Shown one piece after another: positions 10,619 to 33,958 of a stretch of DNA of 39,857 nucleotides. This DNA is from an uncultured Lachnospiraceae bacterium (GTDB lineage: Bacteria; Bacillota; Clostridia; Lachnospirales; Lachnospiraceae): NCBI GenBank assembly GCA_902781215.1, contig CACZIO010000030.1, positions 1-39,857 on the forward strand, read 5' to 3'. The notes beneath the pieces are model-generated. The model was not told where the DNA came from. It saw only the letters and a program-made list of their open reading frames with translations, and did no database searches. Each line of letters starts with the position of its first letter. The stretch's first letter is position 1. The translations under genes were made by a program, and so were the position numbers.

Positions 10619-10978
10619 TCATGCATGCCGCCCGACCTCGATGGTCAGGACGTTCAGCCCCATCAGGTTCTGGTAGCTGACCTGAGACGCCAGCCCGTGC
10701 ACGATGCGGGTCCCGATGTTTTTGTAGGGAGAATCCTCCCGGACCAGGGCCGCGCGCTCCTCCGGATTAAAGGGGATCCCGTTGTCCTTGATGCGCAGCA
10801 GAGAATAGTAGAGCCCTACCACACCGACCATTTCGGCCGCGATACACCTGGAGGCGACCACCCCGTCCACCAGGGAGTTGACCGAGCCCATGGCAACGAC
10901 CAGAACCTGGACCGGGAGCAGACTGAAGACCAGATGGAGCAGCAGCCTGTTTTCCTGCCTGCCTTTTTTGCGTTTCAT
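10619..10978 (-). pseudogene. Collapsed MATE-transporter/RsbW-like ATPase fusion gene
   Basis: 119 residues in frame. Residues 1-56 (VNSLVDGVVASRCIAAEMVG, VVGLY) match the N-terminal transmembrane start of MATE proteins. From residue about 57 the sequence jumps into the end of a GHKL/RsbW-type ATPase domain (LLRIKDNGIPFNPEERAA, the G1 box, then KNIGTRIVHGLA, the G2 box). Both halves align with the 597-residue MATE-ATPase at 30312-32105, including the order of its motifs, so about 470 residues have been lost by an in-frame internal deletion. The ribosome binding site (GGGAGG) survives, directly downstream of citrate synthase. Interpreted as a dead paralogue, though a short peptide could still be made. 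Confidence 0.75.
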
Positions 10979-12919: not shown

Positions 12920-15457
12920 CTACCCGAATACCTCCTCCGCGTAGTGCACGGTCGCCATGGCGTCCGGCGCGTAGCAGTCCGCCCCGATGGAGTCGGCATA
13001 TTCCTGTGTCATGACGGCGCCGCCGACCACGACCCTGGTGTCGGGCTTTTTTTCGCGGAGCTGGCGGATGGTCTCCTCCATGCTCACGACCGTCGTCGTC
13101 ATGAGGGCACTGAGGCCGACCAGGCGGATCTTCTCGCGCTGCGCGGTCTCCACAATGGTCTCCGGGGCGACGTCCTTGCCCAGGTCCAGGATGTCATAGC
13201 CGTAGTTTTCCAACATGACCTTGACGATGTTCTTGCCGATGTCGTGGATGTCCCCCTTGACGGTCGCCAGGATGATCCTGCCCCTGGCCTCGCGCTTTTC
13301 GTCCCGCATGGTCTCCTTGATGACCTCAAAGGCAGCCTTGGCGGCCTCGGCGCTCATGAGGAGCTGGGGCAGGAAAATGGTTCCCTTCTCAAAGCCCTTG
13401 CCGACGACATCGAGGGCCGGGATTAACTCCCTGTTGATGAGCTCCAGGGCAGGAAGGCCCTCCGCCAGCAGGGCGCTCGCCGCCTCGGCAGCCTTTTGTC
13501 CCATGCCCCGCCGGATGCTCTCAGCCAGGGACATGGCGCCGGATTTGTCCTGGTTTTTTCCGCCTGCTGCGCCGGGCAGGCCCGGGGCACCTGCATTTGC
13601 TCTTCCGCCGGCAGTTCCCTCAGGCACTGCAGCCAAAGTGCCGGGCGCAGCCGCCGCATCCCCCGCAGCGGTCCCGGCGCCGCCCGAAATGTTGGCTGAA
13701 GCAGGCCGGCGCACGATATTGGCGCAGGTGTCGATGTAGCCCATGCACTGGGGGTCCATGTCCGAGAGGGCCAGGAAGGCGCGGTAGGCCAGGATCATAT
13801 CCTCGTTGCCGGGGTTCATGATGGCGCAGGACAGCCCCATTTGCATGGCCATGGTCAGAAAGTGGGCGTTGATGACGGACCGCTCGGGCAGGCCGAAGGA
13901 AATATTGGAGACGCCCAGGATGGTGTGGCCGCCCAGCTCGTCGCGCACGCGGCGCAGGGTCTCGAGCGTGACCAGGGCCCCCTTCGTGTCCGAGGAGATG
14001 GTCATGGCCAGGGCGTCGATCACCACATCCTCGCGGGGCACGCCAAAGCGGTCCGCCGCCCGGTAGATCTTTTTCGCGATCTCGATCCGGCCGTCGGCGG
14101 TCTCCGGGATCCCGCCCTCGTCCAGGGTCAGGCCGACCACCACACCGCCGTATTTGGCGACGAGGGGGAGGACGGACTCCAGGCTCTCCCGCTTGCCGTT
14201 GACGGAGTTGACCATGGGCTTGCCGTTGTAGAGGCGCATGCCGCGCTCCATGGCCGCCGGGTCGGAGGTGTCGATCTGGAGCGGCAGGGCCAGGATGCTC
14301 TGCAGGCGGGTGACGACGGTCTCCATCATGCGGGGCTCGTCGATCTCCGGCAGGCCCACGTTGACGTCGAGGATGTGGGCGCCACTGTCCTCCTGGCGCA
14401 GGCCCTCCTCGAGAATGTACTCGATATTGTTGTCCCGCAGGGCCTCCTTGAACTTCTTTTTGCCGGTCGGATTGATCCGCTCGCCGATGATGAGCGGCTT
14501 TTTGCCGATCTCGACCGCCTGAGAATACGAAGAGACCACTGTGCGGTGTTTTCTGCTGACCGGGATAAAAGGAAGATTCCGGACCGCCTCCACGGTTCTG
14601 CGGATATGGTCCGGCGTGGTGCCGCAGCAGCCTCCGACGGCCTGCACGCCCATGGCGGCGATCTTTTTCATCCAGACGGCGAAGGTTTCAGGATCCACAT
14701 CGTAGACCGTCCGGCCGTTCTCACTGCGGGGCAGGCCTGCGTTGGGATTGACGAGGACGGGCACGGAGGCGGTCTCCACCAGCTGCTGGACGATCGGGAT
14801 CATCTGCTCCGGCCCCATGCCGCAGTTGACGCCAAGGCCGTCCACGCGCAGGCCCTCCAGCATGGCGACGGTGGATGCAACCGTGCCGCCGGTCAGGAGC
14901 TTGCCGCTGCCGTCGTAGACATTGGTGATCAGGACGGGCAGGTCGCAGTTCTCCTTGGCCGCCAGGACGGCTGCCTTGGACTCATAGCTGTCGCTCATGG
15001 TCTCGATCAGGACCAGGTCCGCGCCGGCCGCCGCACCGATGCGGACGACCTGGCCGAAGAGGTCCACGGCCCGCTCGAAGGGCAGGTCGCCGAGGGGCTC
15101 CAGCAGGCGTCCCGTCGGTCCGATGTCCAAGGCGATATAGGCGTCCCCGCGTCCGGTCCTGCGGCGCGCCTCCTGCGCCAGGGACACCGCTGCCTCGACG
15201 ATGGCGCGCAACTCCCCCTCATCCGGAAACTTGAGGGCATTGGCCCCGAAGGTGTTGGTGTTGAAAATATCACAGCCCGCCCGCAGGTATCCGCAGTGCA
15301 GGTCGATGATATCCTCCGGCCGGGTGAGGTTCCACCTCTCGGGAAGCTCCCCGCCCTGCAGGCCTTTTTCCTGCAGGATGGTCCCTGTCCCGCCGTCAAA
15401 AAACAGCCATTCTTTTCCCAGCCGCTCCAGCAAGGGTCTCCTGTTCACACCTGCCAT
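12920..15457 (-). CDS. metH: Cobalamin-dependent methionine synthase lacking the activation domain
   Basis: 845 residues. Domains: homocysteine S-methyltransferase (1 to about 300; Zn ligands in GVNCGMG and GGCCGTTP), pterin/methyl-THF binding (about 320-580; IIGERINPTGKKKF, then DVNVGLPEID), cobalamin cap (about 645-720) and B12 Rossmann domain (about 725-845; GDIHDIGKNIV gives the axial His, DxHxxG). It transfers the methyl group from methyl-THF via cobalamin to homocysteine. The AdoMet reactivation domain of E. coli MetH is absent; it is supplied by the separate gene at 15695-16375. An Ala/Gly/Pro-rich insert (about 590-645) separates the folate and cobalamin parts and is unusually long. 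ATG 15457 lies behind CAGGAG. Likely one transcript with the activation gene and metF. Confidence 0.95.
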   Translation of the reverse strand: MAGVNRRPLLERLGKEWLFFDGGTGTILQEKGLQGGELPERWNLTRPEDIIDLHCGYLRAGCDIFNTNTFGANALKFPDEGELRAIVEAAVSLAQEARRRTGRGDAYIALDIGPTGRLLEPLGDLPFERAVDLFGQVVRIGAAAGADLVLIETMSDSYESKAAVLAAKENCDLPVLITNVYDGSGKLLTGGTVASTVAMLEGLRVDGLGVNCGMGPEQMIPIVQQLVETASVPVLVNPNAGLPRSENGRTVYDVDPETFAVWMKKIAAMGVQAVGGCCGTTPDHIRRTVEAVRNLPFIPVSRKHRTVVSSYSQAVEIGKKPLIIGERINPTGKKKFKEALRDNNIEYILEEGLRQEDSGAHILDVNVGLPEIDEPRMMETVVTRLQSILALPLQIDTSDPAAMERGMRLYNGKPMVNSVNGKRESLESVLPLVAKYGGVVVGLTLDEGGIPETADGRIEIAKKIYRAADRFGVPREDVVIDALAMTISSDTKGALVTLETLRRVRDELGGHTILGVSNISFGLPERSVINAHFLTMAMQMGLSCAIMNPGNEDMILAYRAFLALSDMDPQCMGYIDTCANIVRRPASANISGGAGTAAGDAAAAPGTLAAVPEGTAGGRANAGAPGLPGAAGGKNQDKSGAMSLAESIRRGMGQKAAEAASALLAEGLPALELINRELIPALDVVGKGFEKGTIFLPQLLMSAEAAKAAFEVIKETMRDEKREARGRIILATVKGDIHDIGKNIVKVMLENYGYDILDLGKDVAPETIVETAQREKIRLVGLSALMTTTVVSMEETIRQLREKKPDTRVVVGGAVMTQEYADSIGADCYAPDAMATVHYAEEVFG

Positions 15458-27907: not shown

Positions 27908-28061
27908 ACTTCCCTCTATGTCGAAGCGCTCCTGCGCTGAGACACGCGAGGAGAAAGCCCGGAACGGGTTTCTCCGATGCGATCACAGAAGGTTTGCGGC
28001 GCTTCGACGCAAACCTCCGGAGTGAAAAAAACGCTATCGAGCGTTTTTTTCACTCTTTCCT
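27908..28061 (-). ncRNA. Structured leader element, copy B (four hairpins)
   Basis: Hairpins: 27925-27938 (AGCGC/GCGCT), 27950-27975 (GGAGAAA..TTTCTCC), 27990-28016 (AGGTTTGCG/CGCAAACCT) and 28021-28054 (15-bp perfect stem AGTGAAAAAAACGCT, ATCG loop). It fills the whole gap from the HD-protein stop codon to the YfhO start codon. Compared with copy A (21030-21181), hairpin order, ATCG loop, TTCTCCGA.G and GATCACAGA linkers and the flanking CTCTTTCCT and CATACTT.CCT are kept, while stem bases change on both sides of the pairs. Confidence 0.6.
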
Positions 28062-28062
28062 C

Positions 28063-28998
28063 TCAGATGTATTTTACGAGAACTTCCTTCTGGGTGATGC
28101 GGAAGTCCGACCTGGTTTCCGCCACGTCCCGGCAGTAATCCAGGGTCTCCTGGAGCTTCCCCCGCAGATCCTCGACCAGGTCCACAAACCTGGGCTCAAC
28201 GGGCCGGCAGTGCAGGACGACACAGTCCGGCAGGATCTCGACGGTCCGGATGGATTCATGCGTGCCGAAGGCGTCGATGTCCACCTGCCTGGTCAGCGTC
28301 GACGTGTCGAACAGGATCTCGGGATTTCTGTCCGCACCTACGTCCAGCTCATCCGCGAGCCGGATCACAGCGGAGAGATAGGCCGTGTGGATCATCCCGG
28401 ACGGCGTCTGGATATCCGGGTATTCCTTTTCATCGTAGAGATCTGTTTTCCTGTGCCCCCTGGATACCTGAATGATGGCAAACAGGAGGTCTTCCGAGGG
28501 GATATCGAACAGCCTGCTGTATTTTCGCAGGAATAATCCGCTGAGCTCATTGTGAAAAGCCCTTATGATATTCGGCGCATTCGTCTTCTTATGCGCCTCC
28601 AGCCAGGCCTTCAGTCTCAGTTTTCTGCGGAAGATCTCGAAATCCTTCAGACTGACGCCCATCCCGATATCGTGCAGATAGCAGGCCATGATGAGCACAT
28701 AGCATTCCGCCGCATTGAGCCTGTCAATGTAATCCCGCGCAAGTATGTTGGAAAAAGCCAGTACATCCATACTGTGCAGGATGGAGTGGTCCGTAAAATC
28801 CGGGAACCACGAAAAAAACGATTCCAGCATCCCGTGCAGGCTCACCAGGCTGTCCCGGAAGCTCTGATGCAGGTCCGGCGCCTCCCGAAGGAGCTTATGT
28901 TCCAGTGCAAACTGTTCCATTCTCTGTTCTCTGTCTTTTGTCTCTTTTTTTGCGGTGTATCGCGCCTGCCGGCATGGCCTTTTTACCAACTCAGCCAT
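28063..28998 (-). CDS. HD-domain metal-dependent phosphohydrolase
   Basis: 311 residues. The HD signature has TDHSILHSMDVL (His 71/75), YLHDIGMG (His 109-Asp 110), QVSRGHRKTDL (His) and AVIRLADELDVGADRNP (Asp), the order of metal ligands in HD phosphohydrolases. The late LADELD..DR.P motif resembles HD domains associated with GHKL-type ATPases. No DNA-binding or membrane part; the C-terminal 90 residues are a separate alpha/beta region. The substrate (cyclic nucleotide, nucleotide or phosphoprotein) is unknown. The start is uncertain: ATG 28998 or 28920, neither with a strong ribosome binding site. Third gene of the MATE-ATPase / STAS-kinase / HD set, so likely part of that signalling unit. 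Confidence 0.82.
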   Translation of the reverse strand: MAELVKRPCRQARYTAKKETKDREQRMEQFALEHKLLREAPDLHQSFRDSLVSLHGMLESFFSWFPDFTDHSILHSMDVLAFSNILARDYIDRLNAAECYVLIMACYLHDIGMGVSLKDFEIFRRKLRLKAWLEAHKKTNAPNIIRAFHNELSGLFLRKYSRLFDIPSEDLLFAIIQVSRGHRKTDLYDEKEYPDIQTPSGMIHTAYLSAVIRLADELDVGADRNPEILFDTSTLTRQVDIDAFGTHESIRTVEILPDCVVLHCRPVEPRFVDLVEDLRGKLQETLDYCRDVAETRSDFRITQKEVLVKYI

Positions 28999-29033
28999 GG
29001 CTTCAGGTTATAGGCTCACAGGCTCACAGGATG

Positions 29034-29071
29034 CAAGACCTGCCTGCGGATCCTGCGCCCTGCGTGATTCG
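29034..29071. repeat. Palindromic repeat, family P copy 3 (degenerate)
   Basis: CAAGACCTGCCTGCGGATCCTG then CGCCCTGCGTG. Preceded by the short tandem GGCTCACAGGCTCACAGG. It lies between the STAS-kinase and HD genes. It matches copies at 15553 and 23541 in layout, but with arm mismatches. Confidence 0.45.
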
Positions 29072-29081
29072 CACATATATA

Positions 29082-30269
29082 TCAGCCTGCCCCGACCTCC
29101 AGCGAGTCGACCTGGCCGGAGAGCTCCCTGATCCTGTCCAGGGTATGCGCGATCCTGACCTCGATCAGCTCCGGCAGGCCGATGTTGAATACGGCGACCA
29201 GGTAGAGGAAGCGGATGCAGCCGACAAGACTGATCTTTTTGCGCGCCGCCTCCAGCTCTTCCCTGCTCTTCCCTTCAAAGTAGTATTCCAGGGTCCGGTC
29301 GAAGACATATTGGCTCAGATCCGCGGGGATGCCCAGGAATTTTTCCGTGTTGTCCGGCTCGTCCTCGTTGAAAAGCACATAGGTCACATATATCCCCTGC
29401 AGGTCAAAGACCGGGTCGCCGGTGCTCAGGGTATCCATATCGATCAGGAGGGGCTCATCTTCACTGAGCATGACATTTTTCATCTGGATATCGCCGTGGA
29501 CTGCATGCAGATTTTCCTGCATGCCGCTCAGGAGCTCTCTCAGACGACCGTACAGGTCCTCCGGCATGTGCCCCTTCAGGTCGTCCAGATATCCCAGGAA
29601 AACATCCCTGGCCTCCGGCAGGACACCGGGGTCCATTTCTACCTCGTGGATCTGACGGAGAAGCCCGGCATATCTGCGGAGGAGCTCGTCCCTGTTTTCC
29701 GGCGCCTTGATCAGCTCGTCGTTAAAGGTGGTCGCCCTGAGCAGCTCAAAGACCGACCCGTACTTATCTCCGACCTTGACCATGTCGTAGGAGATCGCCG
29801 TCGGGATCCCCTTGATAAAGGCCTCCTTGGCCATATTCTGCTCGTTCTCGATCATGGCCAGGCTGTCGGGCACTTCATAGACCTTGACGATGGTATCGTC
29901 ATCGACCCTGTACACGGTACCCACGGCGCCCTGCCCGATGATCTCGCAGCCCTCGACCGAGACCTCGCGGAGCTTCCGCTTGATGTCCATGAGCATGTCA
30001 AAATGGGTCATCTGGAAGATATCATAGATCTCCGGATTCACGTTCCTGGCGATCAGCTTTTCACCCTTCTGCTGCTTGACATAGTAGAGCAGCACGCGCA
30101 GTCCCGCGCTCGAGATATACTCCAGGTCCTCCAGGTCGAGCAGGAGCTTCTTTCCTGGATTCGCGGACAGGATCTCCTGGATCCCGGTCTTCAGGGCATC
30201 GGCATTGTTGGATGTGATCTTCCCCTCCGGATAGACGACAATATAATCATTCTCAATGGTGTTTCTCAT
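29082..30269 (-). CDS. STAS domain fused to APH-like kinase (anti-sigma-antagonist-type protein)
   Basis: 395 residues. Residues 1-105 are a STAS domain: VVYPEGKITSNNADALKTGI, then LLLDLEDLEYISSAGLRVLL, where Ser 54 is at the phosphorylation site of SpoIIAA/RsbV proteins. Residues 106-395 are a protein-kinase-fold phosphotransferase of the aminoglycoside/choline-kinase type: Gly loop IIGQGAVGTVYRV, Lys 129 in TIVKVYEV, catalytic VHGDIQMKNVML (Asp 260) and metal site LLIDMDTLSTGDP (Asp 277). ATG 30269 follows ATGGAGGG. It is 42 nt downstream of the MATE-ATPase gene, whose ATPase is of the kind that phosphorylates STAS partners. I infer a partner-switch pair; the kinase substrate is unknown. 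Confidence 0.88.
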   Translation of the reverse strand: MRNTIENDYIVVYPEGKITSNNADALKTGIQEILSANPGKKLLLDLEDLEYISSAGLRVLLYYVKQQKGEKLIARNVNPEIYDIFQMTHFDMLMDIKRKLREVSVEGCEIIGQGAVGTVYRVDDDTIVKVYEVPDSLAMIENEQNMAKEAFIKGIPTAISYDMVKVGDKYGSVFELLRATTFNDELIKAPENRDELLRRYAGLLRQIHEVEMDPGVLPEARDVFLGYLDDLKGHMPEDLYGRLRELLSGMQENLHAVHGDIQMKNVMLSEDEPLLIDMDTLSTGDPVFDLQGIYVTYVLFNEDEPDNTEKFLGIPADLSQYVFDRTLEYYFEGKSREELEAARKKISLVGCIRFLYLVAVFNIGLPELIEVRIAHTLDRIRELSGQVDSLEVGAG

Positions 30270-30311
30270 TTTTTCCCTCCATTCCGGTGCGCTCTGCGCG
30301 ACGGGGCATTC

Positions 30312-32105
30312 TCAGTTGTTCTCCAGGTACATGAAGAGACAATTGCTGTTGAAGGTGTTGATGTAGCGTATATCCTTCGCCAGGGCCATCACCATCCGGA
30401 TCCCGATGTTGGACATCCGGTTGTCGTCCCTGTGGATCTCATTGAATTTCATGGGGTCAAACTCCTCGCAGTAGTCGCGCAGGCTGATCCCGATCCGGCC
30501 GCCGTTTGCGGAGATCCTGTAGTCCGCGCAGACGCTGCCGCCCCGCCTGGCCTTTCCGTGCCGGATGATGTTGCCGCCCATTTCCTCGACAAACAGGGCC
30601 ACCATGTTGGCGCCTCTTCCGTCCACACCGTGGGCGATGCAGAATTCATGGGCATGCTCGCTCTCTCTCACCACATCCTCCATGGTGGAGATGCGGGCGT
30701 AGATATTGTCCTCCTCCTTCCCGCCGAAGCCCTCCGGCAGGAACATGATGTCCTCCAGCTTTCGGGGAAGGCCCTTGCAGCGCACACAGACAATGACGAA
30801 AGCCAGCAGGAAGAGGATGATCTTGCCGACCGCCATCGAGGCCATGATCCCCCTCGACCCGAAGGCCATGCCCAGGATCCAGGCCGTCGCCACGGGGAGG
30901 AAGAAGCGCTCGGCGAAGCACAGGGTGTTGACGAGCTTCCGGTTCTGAATGCCCTGCAGGTAGTCCTGAAAGGCTTCGTTCAGGGCGTCCGGGACCAGGC
31001 TGATGGCCATGCAGCGGATACTGAATACGGACAGGGCGGTCACCTCCGGGTCACTGGTGTAGATCCGAGACACCAGGGGCGCGGCGATAAAGAGGATCAC
31101 CCCGACCACGGCCAGGAGCCGGATGCAGAGCAGCATGGCGTATTTGTAGGCCCGCTTGAGGCCGTCCAGGTCCTCCGCCCCGTAATACATGGAGGACATG
31201 GTCAAAAGCGTCCTGCCGATCCCGATGCTGATGCAGAACATCAGACTATTGAGGTCGGCCTGCATGCCCTTGGCCGCCACGGCGGCCGTGCTGACGGCCA
31301 CGACCAGGTTGATCCGGTTGGTCAGGATATCGCGGAGGATGGTGGCGAGCTTCTTGACAAAGGAGATCAGGCCGTTCTGCCCGATATCCCTGATGTGCGC
31401 CGCCTTCAGGCTCTTGAGCGACAGGCGGAAATAGCCCTCCTTTTTCACAAAGTGCATCAGCAGGACCAGGAGCTGCAGCCACATGGCAATGGACGTCGCG
31501 ACGCCCATTCCGAAGACACCGCCCTTGATGACCAGGGCGTTGATAAAGTCTCCCGCGATGTCCGTCAGGCACAGGACCGTCGCGGAGAGAGACACCAGCT
31601 GCTTGCCGTTGTCCATGACCATGAAGGGACTGAGGATCTGCACCATGATCACGGCGGGAATGCCGATCATATAGCCGTGCAGATACTCGAGCATGTGCTC
31701 GTAGAGCTCCGGCCTGCCCTTGTGGGACACGCCGCAGATCTGGAGCAGGGTCCCCGGAGAGATGGCGCTGAAAATGACAAAGGCCGCCGCGACCAGGATC
31801 CCGAACAGGAGCGAGAAGGTAAAGACCGCGTTCGCCTCGTCCCGGTCGCCCGTTCCCACCTTATTGGAGCAGACGATCTGGCCGCCGATGGACACGAAAC
31901 TGGCAAAGAGCAGCACGATGTTGACCAGGGGCCCCAGCAGGGCGACGGCCGAGTACTGGTCAGAGCCCAGAAAACGGCTCGTCACAATACCGTCGATGAT
32001 CGTCGCGACGACGCCTGTCATCTGGGTGAAGATCATGACGATCGCCGCCGTCAGGAACATGCTGGCGATGACATCCTTTTCTTTTTTGTTTCCGATAATG
32101 GGCAT
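30312..32105 (-). CDS. MATE transporter fused to RsbW/SpoIIAB-like ATPase
   Basis: 597 residues from ATG 32105 (MPIIGNKKEKDV), with GAAAGGAG 10 nt upstream; the frame continues 37 codons further without a site. Residues about 10-450 are 12 transmembrane helices of the MATE fold (TGVVATIIDGIVTSRFLG, VSIGGQIVCSNKVGTGDRDE, IGRTLLTMSSMYYGAEDLDG). Residues about 468-597 are a GHKL ATPase of the anti-sigma kinase type: N box FVEEMGGNIIRHG, a G1 position reading SLRDYCEEFDP (the usual Gly is Cys), and G2 MSNIGIRMVMALA. MATE proteins exchange Na+/H+ for drugs or metabolites; the fusion suggests that transport or substrate binding controls the kinase, or the reverse. First gene of the cassette; promoter at 32314-32342. 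A deleted paralogue lies at 10619-10978. Confidence 0.9.
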   Translation of the reverse strand: MPIIGNKKEKDVIASMFLTAAIVMIFTQMTGVVATIIDGIVTSRFLGSDQYSAVALLGPLVNIVLLFASFVSIGGQIVCSNKVGTGDRDEANAVFTFSLLFGILVAAAFVIFSAISPGTLLQICGVSHKGRPELYEHMLEYLHGYMIGIPAVIMVQILSPFMVMDNGKQLVSLSATVLCLTDIAGDFINALVIKGGVFGMGVATSIAMWLQLLVLLMHFVKKEGYFRLSLKSLKAAHIRDIGQNGLISFVKKLATILRDILTNRINLVVAVSTAAVAAKGMQADLNSLMFCISIGIGRTLLTMSSMYYGAEDLDGLKRAYKYAMLLCIRLLAVVGVILFIAAPLVSRIYTSDPEVTALSVFSIRCMAISLVPDALNEAFQDYLQGIQNRKLVNTLCFAERFFLPVATAWILGMAFGSRGIMASMAVGKIILFLLAFVIVCVRCKGLPRKLEDIMFLPEGFGGKEEDNIYARISTMEDVVRESEHAHEFCIAHGVDGRGANMVALFVEEMGGNIIRHGKARRGGSVCADYRISANGGRIGISLRDYCEEFDPMKFNEIHRDDNRMSNIGIRMVMALAKDIRYINTFNSNCLFMYLENN

Positions 32106-32737: not shown

Positions 32738-33223
32738 TTGGAACTCAAAAAAATCACCAGCTTCACCATCAATCATCTCCTGCTGGAGCCCGGCATCTAC
32801 GTCTCCCGCGTCGATCACTACGGGGACGCCGCCATCACGACCTTTGACCTGCGGATGACCGCCCCCAACCGGGAGCCCGTCATGAACACGGCGGAGATGC
32901 ACACCATCGAGCATCTGGGCGCCACCTTCCTGAGAAATCACGAGACCTTCGGGGACAGGATCGTCTATTTCGGTCCCATGGGCTGCCGGACCGGTTTCTA
33001 CCTGCTCATGGCAGGCGAGTACAGCTCCCGGGACATCGTCCCCCTCATCACGCAGATGTACGAATTCATCCGCGACTACGAGGGCGAGATCCCCGGCGCC
33101 GCCGCCCGCGACTGCGGCAACTACCTGGACCAGAACCTGACCATGGCCCGCTGGCTGGCTGACCGCCACCTCAACCGGACCCTCTACGGCATCGACGACG
33201 CCCACCTGGTCTATCCGGAATAA
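32738..33223 (+). CDS. luxS: S-ribosylhomocysteine lyase (LuxS, autoinducer-2 synthase)
   Basis: 161 residues, normal length, starting at TTG 32738, 6 nt after AAAGGAGG. Metal ligands are His 55 and His 59 in HTIEH (Glu 58 the general base) and Cys 126 in ARDCGNY; the catalytic Cys 83 is in GPMGCRTGFYLL. It cleaves S-ribosylhomocysteine to homocysteine and DPD, the AI-2 precursor, in the cytosol. mtnN, supplying its substrate, follows 21 nt downstream. The homocysteine produced feeds MetH encoded at 12920-15457. Confidence 0.97.
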   Translation: MELKKITSFTINHLLLEPGIYVSRVDHYGDAAITTFDLRMTAPNREPVMNTAEMHTIEHLGATFLRNHETFGDRIVYFGPMGCRTGFYLLMAGEYSSRDIVPLITQMYEFIRDYEGEIPGAAARDCGNYLDQNLTMARWLADRHLNRTLYGIDDAHLVYPE

Positions 33224-33244
33224 TAAATGACAGGAGTAATCAAC

Positions 33245-33958
33245 ATGAAAATCGGAATCATCGGGGCCATGGACCTCGAAATCGAAAAGCTCACCACACA
33301 GGAAATGGCCTCTGAAGAGATCGTCGAAGCTGCCGGCATGCGCTTTCATGTCGGAAAGCTGGGCGGCACGGACGTCGTGATCGTCAAGAGCGGTGTCGGC
33401 AAGGTCAACGCCGCCATCTGCGCCCAGATCCTGATCGACCGCTTCGGGGTCACCCACCTGCTCAACACCGGGATCGCCGGCTCCCTCGACCACCGCATCA
33501 ACATCGGAGACATCGTCGTCTCCACCGACGCCGTCTATCATGACGTCGACGTCACCGCCTTCGGCTATGAGCCCGGCGTCATCCCCCAGATGGGGACGCC
33601 CAACGGGCTCAAGTCCTTCCCCGCCGATCCCACCCTGCGCAGCACCGCCATCGCCGCCTGCCGGGAGGCAGCGCCCGGCATCGGCATCTTCGAGGGCCGT
33701 GTCGTCAGCGGCGACCAGTTCATCTGCACCGCTGACCAGAAGCACCGCATCGTGGACACCTTCCATGCCCTGTGCACCGAGATGGAGGGAACCGCCATCG
33801 CCCACACCGCCTTTGTCAACGGCATCCCCTTCGTCATCCTGCGCGCCATCTCCGACAAGGCCGACGAGGAGGCCGACGTCACCTACGAGACCTTCGAACA
33901 CCAGGCCGCGGAGAACTGCGCCAACCTCGTGGCGCACATGGTGCGGAGCCTGGGCTGA
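33245..33958 (+). CDS. mtnN: 5'-methylthioadenosine/S-adenosylhomocysteine nucleosidase
   Basis: 237 residues from ATG 33245 (MKIGIIGAMDLEI), with AGGAG 9 nt upstream. Motifs: GIIGAMDLEIEKL (catalytic Glu region), LLNTGIAGSLDHRINIGDIV, VVSGDQFI, TEMEGTAIAH (substrate-ribose Glu) and RAISDKADEEA (catalytic Asp). It removes adenine from SAH and MTA, producing the S-ribosylhomocysteine used by LuxS. The pair forms a two-gene SAH recycling operon ending in the terminator at 34010-34056. Confidence 0.97.
   Translation: MKIGIIGAMDLEIEKLTTQEMASEEIVEAAGMRFHVGKLGGTDVVIVKSGVGKVNAAICAQILIDRFGVTHLLNTGIAGSLDHRINIGDIVVSTDAVYHDVDVTAFGYEPGVIPQMGTPNGLKSFPADPTLRSTAIAACREAAPGIGIFEGRVVSGDQFICTADQKHRIVDTFHALCTEMEGTAIAHTAFVNGIPFVILRAISDKADEEADVTYETFEHQAAENCANLVAHMVRSLG

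Follow-up and report, generated by a model that had tools for sequence, protein, structure and literature searches.

A putative partner-switching cassette of a Lachnospiraceae bacterium: a MATE transporter with an RsbW-type ATPase, a STAS domain on an APH-type kinase, and an HD phosphohydrolase

The described systems closest to the locus studied here are the partner switches of Bacillus subtilis, SpoIIAB/SpoIIAA/SpoIIE and RsbW/RsbV/RsbU, and the SiaABCD system of Pseudomonas aeruginosa. The accessible part of PMC8256260 presents ATPase, STAS protein and SpoIIE as the textbook partner-switch set. According to the accessible part of PMC9239204, in SiaABCD a PP2C phosphatase, a STAS-kinase and a STAS protein control the cyclic di-GMP enzyme SiaD and not a sigma factor. 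We analysed the window, that is, the entire contig CACZIO010000030.1 (C30; 39,857 bases) from the assembly GCA_902781215.1 of an uncultured Lachnospiraceae bacterium (3.33 Mb, 132 contigs). It contains three minus-strand genes encoding a MATE transporter with an RsbW-type ATPase, a STAS domain with an APH-type kinase, and an HD-CE hydrolase; further they are referred to as MATE-ATPase, STAS-APH and HD-CE, respectively. An earlier note, made from the letters of this DNA, had described three same-strand genes of this kind, and both the open reading frames and the Pfam matches agree with it.

The cassette shares with the B. subtilis switches a GHKL serine kinase domain, a STAS antagonist domain with a serine loop and, in its relatives, a PP2C phosphatase. 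Unlike in those switches, the kinase is placed on a transporter and the STAS domain on an APH kinase, and there is an HD-CE hydrolase in addition; a sigma factor is not seen nearby, and the phosphatase is not beside the cassette. SiaABCD has its STAS protein and its enzyme as two distinct proteins and makes cyclic di-GMP; the window has fusions, of STAS with a kinase and of the switch kinase with a transporter. As a switch controlling an enzyme, SiaABCD is nevertheless a precedent for sigma-free switch logic. We propose that the cassette is a sigma-free partner switch, in which a transporter-borne kinase and a PP2C phosphatase would switch the STAS tag of a small-molecule kinase back and forth, with a hydrolase acting against that kinase; the probability that we assign to this reading is about 0.48. 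Partner switching and the domain families involved are established; a switch kinase on a transporter, a STAS domain on an APH kinase and an alternating hydrolase slot were not found described in the literature covered. In particular, no description of MATE-RsbW or STAS-APH fusions was found in the literature searched, most subscription journals being outside the search.

Domains and conserved residues

The first gene (30312..32105, minus strand) encodes a protein of 597 amino acids formed by a MATE-family transporter and a C-terminal RsbW/SpoIIAB-type GHKL ATPase. Pfam matches MatE in two stretches corresponding to the two MatE halves (86.8 bits) and HATPase_c_2 with 32.4 bits (cut-off 27.4). 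The ATPase domain, delimited by Pfam and motifs at 30330..30662 on the minus strand, contains segments which we take to be the N-box (VEEMGGN, 30555-30590), an altered G1 box (RDYCEEFDP, 30453-30479) and a G2-like motif (SNIGIRMV, 30390-30413), all on the same strand. The Glu and Asn of the N-box (EMGGN) and the G2 box are kept, yet in the G1 box, D-Y-C-E-E-F-D-P, Gly is replaced by Cys. Among 28 aligned MATE-ATPases this position holds Cys in 19 proteins, Gly in seven, Asp in one and Tyr in one; Gly is kept in all three STAS-APH-ATPase proteins of the same alignment. The RsbW-like ATPase of the earlier note has lost one G1 residue while retaining the other two boxes, and the residue found in its place is the commonest one among the MATE-ATPases aligned. 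Given this combination of motifs, ATP binding by the domain is plausible but not secure. In a family sample of 200 genomes, 28 of the 30 listed ATPase-domain matches have the MATE-ATPase architecture. A sequence search of solved structures with the window ATPase domain gave no match up to E 1.

The second gene (29082..30269, minus strand) encodes 395 amino acids with Pfam matches to STAS (46.9 bits) and to the APH-fold kinase (52.1 bits). Residues S53, S54, G56, L57, R58, K129, H258, D260, N265 and D277 do not vary among the 14 STAS-APH proteins aligned, and G259 is kept at 90% or more. Ser 54 is the phosphorylatable serine named in the earlier note, and the Lys, HGD and Asp residues that it described as intact are found at positions 129, 258-260 and 277. 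On the minus strand, the STAS phospho-site loop YISSAGLR with Ser 53 and Ser 54 lies at 30096..30119 and the APH catalytic loop HGDIQMKN at 29475..29498; Lys 129 falls within 29877-29894, and the motif LIDMD within 29427-29447. In the alignment, Ser 54 falls opposite the Ser of DSAGL in TM1442. The SpoIIAA residue opposite it is Ser 57 and not Ser 58, the residue that the accessible part of PMC11418112 gives as the SpoIIAA phosphorylation site. The window protein has Ala 55 at the position of Ser 58, which leaves Ser 54 or Ser 53 as the presumed target of phosphorylation. The APH domain matches the TIGR02172 paralog family with 88.1 bits, below the curated cut-off of 228.2, and thus is not a member; no paper mentioning this accession was found in the literature searched. 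One relative, a 662-amino acid protein (L057:7959-9944; loci and genomes compared are given by handles starting with L and G), combines a STAS domain, a degraded-looking APH part with no HGD motif and an ABC ATPase.

A structure model was built for the natural STAS-APH-ATPase chain of L194 from an alignment of 10 rows (predicted local distance difference test, pLDDT, 80.1; predicted template modelling score 0.62). Foldseek returned capreomycin and aminoglycoside phosphotransferases first (E 2e-8, template modelling score 0.4-0.6 by target length). They share with the window kinase the APH fold and the catalytic residues; the listed fold matches of the model show 12-17% identity, and the STAS tag is found only here. 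The SpoIIAB chain 1tid_A was matched with E 4e-7, a score of 0.78 by target length and 20% identity, and 1th8 was matched as well; the STAS domain of the window protein matches SpoIIAA (1auz) and TM1442 (1sbo).

The third gene (28063..28998, minus strand) encodes an HD-CE family HD phosphohydrolase of 311 amino acids, matching PF24391 with 118.4 bits (cut-off 27). Alignment with L094 suggests that translation starts at Met 27, at position 28920. Residues H75, H109-D110, H182 and D216 are invariant in six sequences. No match up to E 1 was obtained either to HD_4 (small alarmone hydrolase) or in a sequence search of solved structures. With the HD-CE profile, the best matches to cyclic-nucleotide phosphodiesterases have E values of 0.05 or worse, which was not taken as evidence, and a model built from the window protein and one relative (mean pLDDT 43.5) was not used for fold search. 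The same HD family occurs in proteins with HSP90-like ATPases: two of the four larger HD-CE proteins scanned (L200, L201) are joined to a GHKL domain. In these two HD-CE is N-terminal to an HSP90-type ATPase, whereas the window kind is a short protein that is near, or fused C-terminally to, an RsbW-type ATPase on a transporter. The accessible part of the main text of PMC7159879 does not contain the term HD-CE.

Linkage, fusions and the hydrolase slot

Co-occurrence was studied in a family sample of 200 genomes, one per genus, with our own genome included and thresholds of E up to 1e-20 for STAS-APH, 1e-8 for the ATPase domain and 1e-10 for HD-CE. STAS-APH was found in 17 genomes, ATPase-domain relatives in 16, and HD-CE in six. 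Fisher tests were made on the 199 genomes left when our own was excluded. STAS-APH and MATE-ATPase are both present in seven of them with 1.2 expected (p 2e-5). The count of MATE-ATPase genomes is 15, the MATE part itself having been checked in all but G199. HD-CE is accompanied by each of STAS-APH and MATE-ATPase in four of five HD-CE genomes (p 1e-4). The two fusions also share one locus in L034, L035, L161, L184, L185, L188, L194, L196 (with a broken STAS-APH) and L261. Thus the pairing noticed in the window recurs both in single loci and across genomes.

Linkage was assessed around 80 named STAS-APH loci, the best-scoring 80 of 564 relatives (at least 598 pattern matches). By title they include Clostridia, Erysipelotrichaceae, Selenomonas and Spirochaetes, mostly of rumen and gut origin. 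We compared the number of domains within 3 kb of STAS-APH with that at 5-8 kb (421 kb and 273 kb examined, respectively). ATPase domains are found 34 times near and never far (p 4e-8, a value that treats the loci as independent, which they are not). The near and far counts are 27 and 0 for SpoIIE, 26 and 3 for STAS, 19 and 0 for HD_4, 10 and 0 for PHP, 7 and 1 for MATE, and 1 and 0 for HD-CE; the near counts of HD_4, PHP and SpoIIE are favoured, since these three models were built from neighbours of STAS-APH genes. STAS, APH and ATPase form one chain in 11 of the 80 loci, and MATE-ATPase is present in six. Around the 28 MATE-ATPase genes of the family sample, seven have STAS within 3 kb (eight STAS domains near, none at 5-8 kb).

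To collect more HD-CE loci of the window kind, we searched 392 genomes of the order (9 matching) and the genus to which G722 belongs (79 genomes, 14 matching) and added G801, the last found via its STAS-APH gene and not via HD (G801 is the same contig as L122; L122 and L266/L284 are likewise one contig with the same layout and were counted once). Such loci were collected from 23 genomes in all, 14 of them from one genus. MATE, ATPase and HD form a single protein in 11 of the 23 loci; nine of these fusions come from that same genus, and the fusions span three genera only. In six loci MATE-ATPase is close to HD-CE without fusion, as in the window, where STAS-APH lies between them. In the other six (G056, G081, G524, G646, G871, G801) it is not close: G524 has in its place an SDF symporter, divergent in sequence, whose ATPase-like domain gives a weak match, and in G801, from the genus of the window, HD adjoins STAS-APH 0.6 kb from the contig end.

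Several relatives hold fuller sets of parts. In L261 seven same-strand genes in a row encode a nonribosomal peptide synthetase (NRPS, 1851 amino acids), STAS (101), MATE-ATPase (607), HD-CE (286), STAS-APH (397), an RsbW-like ATPase (142) and SpoIIE (528), with identities to the window of 68% for MATE-ATPase, 59% for HD-CE and 45% for STAS-APH. In L035 STAS-APH stands beside a MATE-ATPase-HD triple fusion on the opposite strand, in L034 two STAS-APH genes adjoin MATE-ATPase, and in L094 and L097 MATE-ATPase is followed by HD. The order is STAS, SpoIIE-ATPase, HD_4, STAS-APH, DUF218 protein, MATE-ATPase in L161 and SpoIIE, MATE-ATPase, STAS-APH-ATPase, PHP in L194. The SpoIIE-type phosphatase, the free STAS and free RsbW proteins and the exchangeable hydrolase slot seen in these rows, along with the HD-CE identity of the third protein, had escaped the earlier note.

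The switch domains are attached to other proteins as well. A GH3 ligase with a C-terminal STAS domain (L184:11472-13511) directly follows MATE-ATPase, and a free GH3 protein is encoded between STAS and MATE-ATPase in L097. The GH3 part of the L184 protein has a weak likeness to a lyso-ornithine lipid synthetase model, far under its cut-off. SDF symporters encoded near such genes (L098, L117, L158) carry an N-terminal degenerate relative of the ATPase (hhalign 97%, E 1e-10), with at most 0.5% for the STAS, HD_4, APH and PHP controls; the ATPase-like N-terminal domain of the L259 SDF symporter gives a weak match only. As STAS is found on APH and GH3 proteins, and the ATPase on MATE, SDF and SpoIIE proteins, STAS appears to tag enzymes, and the ATPase, transporters and phosphatases, as would be expected of a docking pair.

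Different phosphohydrolases occupy the position next to STAS-APH. HD_4 adjoins it in 17 of the 80 loci (within 300 bp, same strand) and PHP in eight; HD-CE fills the position in the window, L261 and L122 (one of the 80 loci has HD-CE). The HD_4 neighbour belongs to the RelA/SpoT-Mesh1 hydrolase family (PDB 4yf1, E 3e-37; Mesh1 5vxa, E 2e-22), keeps the H, HD and ED residues, and is fused to APH in L051 and L054. The PHP neighbour resembles a 3',5'-nucleoside bisphosphate phosphatase model (E 5e-32; 111 bits, with the cut-off of 400 not reached). This alternation of phosphohydrolases beside one kinase suggests that the kinase and the hydrolase act on one phosphorylated small molecule. A bolder version, which we regard as rather doubtful, is that STAS-APH proteins are synthases of an undescribed nucleotide-like phosphorylated second messenger, switched by STAS phosphorylation and destroyed by the hydrolase of the slot, with MATE-ATPase as its membrane receptor or exporter. 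The substrates of HD_4 proteins of the RelA/SpoT-Mesh1 type and of PHP proteins are nucleotides that bear a 3' (or 2') phosphate; in this version, that would point to a nucleotide phosphorylated at a sugar hydroxyl as the product. HD_4 (RelA/SpoT-like) is also fused to SpoIIE in three proteins that adjoin STAS-APH, L152:5224-7932, L155:6602-7957 and L186:6561-7925, in loci with Spirochaetaceae or Treponema titles.

Gene context in the window and in the genome

The genes of the cassette are separated by 42 bp (first and second) and 83 bp (second and third). GGAG-type ribosome sites precede the MATE-ATPase and STAS-APH genes, and no clear one was seen before the HD gene. The strong promoter mentioned in the earlier note may correspond to a promoter-like site, GTGACA-17-TATAAT, which precedes the MATE gene by about 210 bases (32342-32314, minus strand) and matches the consensus at 11 of 12 positions; the pattern scan, based on consensus match only, found five such sites with 2.2 expected in shuffles. 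Downstream of the HD gene there is a 16-bp hairpin with a T-run (28020..28055, minus strand; z -4.5, none of 200 shuffles as good). This hairpin, absent from the list of the pattern scan that gave the promoter-like site, is likely a terminator.

Seven flanking genes were scanned: two at 23.6-27.9 kb, for a glycosyltransferase and YfhO, and five at 32.7-38.8 kb, for luxS, a nucleosidase, a glycosyltransferase, GtrA and YfhO. No sigma factor was found among the seven, in agreement with what had been noted from the letters. The luxS and nucleosidase genes (32738-33958) adjoin the cassette, and in L263 they lie at 12964-14419, about 2.3 kb from a MATE-ATPase-HD fusion; this neighbourhood was not found in the other loci compared (265 in all, many of them short) and may represent an old shared gene order. 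Elsewhere in the window, between the genes for citrate synthase and a metallo-hydrolase, there is a MATE-ATPase relic of 119 amino acids (10619-10978, minus strand), in which the start of the transporter is joined to the end of the ATPase and the middle is gone.

The genome contains four SpoIIE matches, one of them partial, so that a phosphatase is available in trans. A lone free RsbW-STAS pair is encoded on contig C1. Contig C21 (about 1.7-36.9 kb; L244, L251, L249) holds a second MATE-ATPase together with STAS, a carrier protein and AMP-ligases. Next comes a reading frame at least 5,999 codons long. NRPS condensation, adenylation and carrier domains are encoded in its first 3,000 codons, and SpoIIE lies further on.

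Proposed mechanism and alternatives

If the cassette is a sigma-free partner switch, the RsbW-type domain on the cytoplasmic tail of the MATE protein would bind and/or phosphorylate the STAS tag of STAS-APH at the Ser 54 loop, and a PP2C phosphatase of the SpoIIE type, encoded by an adjoining gene in relatives and in trans in this genome, would reset it. The phosphorylation state of STAS would then set the APH kinase, held at the transporter in one state, free and active in the other. A small molecule would be the substrate of the APH kinase. The product of this kinase would be removed or turned over by the HD-CE hydrolase, which is often part of the same polypeptide as the transporter-kinase and would act in opposition to APH; the MATE part may provide substrate transport. 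The domains, their conserved catalytic residues, the recurrent linkage and the natural fusions are observed. Recurrent linkage and natural fusions also speak for the interpretation given in the earlier note, a kinase/antagonist switch tied to a transporter, and the altered G1 box speaks partly against it, so that this interpretation is supported in part.

A number of observations weigh against our proposal. In 31 of the 80 STAS-APH loci neither an ATPase nor SpoIIE lies within 3 kb, and a hydrolase is missing within 1.5 kb. These solitary loci include 24 of the 26 best-ranked relatives of the window STAS-APH; in 16 of the 31 a contig end cuts one flank to under 3 kb. In 21 of the 28 MATE-ATPase genes of the family sample no STAS is found within 3 kb. 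The three parts are not all together in G135, G079 and G081, and the exact three-gene order of the window was not seen in any other locus compared. A STAS-APH relative is present in 25 of 61 genomes of the window genus, a patchy distribution. For HD_4, PHP and SpoIIE only the absence at distance is independent evidence. SpoIIE was not found beside the window cassette, either among the SpoIIE matches of the genome or in the scan of flanking genes. The G1 Gly is lost in the window ATPase and the N-box Asn is missing in some MATE-ATPases (L034, L117), which suggests binding without catalysis. Finally, a 144-amino acid protein with sigma-70 region 2 is encoded about 1 kb after SpoIIE on C21, so that a sigma output of the second set is possible.

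The main rival, owing to the links with NRPS genes, is self-protection and export: APH would inactivate a peptide or sugar product of the cell itself, MATE would export it and the hydrolase would reactivate it, STAS and the ATPase merely coupling the enzyme to the pump. Capreomycin and aminoglycoside phosphotransferases are the first fold matches of the L194 model, as is to be expected for any APH-fold kinase. An NRPS-type adenylation domain lies within 5 kb of MATE-ATPase in five of 41 rows, L261 among them (L034 and L119 are the same place, as are L055 and L103, and each is counted twice), but only in two of the 80 STAS-APH loci. On C21 a large NRPS region that includes SpoIIE begins with the STAS, carrier protein, AMP-ligase and MATE-ATPase set; in contrast, there is no NRPS gene among the scanned flanking genes of the window cassette. 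Moreover, RelA/SpoT-type hydrolases are not known to serve as partners of drug kinases. On balance we consider this explanation unlikely.

The next in rank, and a shade less likely, is a classical switch with a sigma factor in trans. The MATE-borne ATPase would sequester a sigma factor at the membrane and STAS-APH would free it, transport and APH activity being the inputs. The co-occurrence of ATPase, STAS and SpoIIE, the textbook set of PMC8256260 in its accessible part, and the sigma-70 region 2 gene of C21 fit this explanation. Against it, the scanned flanks of the window hold no sigma factor, none was recognised in the representatives of the 30 largest neighbour groups (read by eye, some of them Pfam-scanned), and STAS is fused to the enzymes APH and GH3. 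That the three genes, for a MATE pump whose ATPase tail has degenerated, an orphan STAS-kinase and an HD enzyme, lie together by chance is improbable, despite the patchy distribution, the many solitary members and the unique order in the window, given the repeated fusions, the full rows in other genera, the co-occurrence at the genome level, and all three parts standing side by side in L261 and L035.

Partner switching is known mainly for freeing sigma factors. Here the same parts are found on transporters (MATE and SDF-related) and on enzymes (APH and GH3), repeatedly with a phosphohydrolase. The pairing of APH with a hydrolase, if confirmed, would offer a direct route to a phosphorylated metabolite not known so far. 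If the sigma-free switch is confirmed, Firmicutes of gut and rumen would have, in these parts, a general and exchangeable device for docking and phosphorylation that serves both transport and the chemistry of small molecules.

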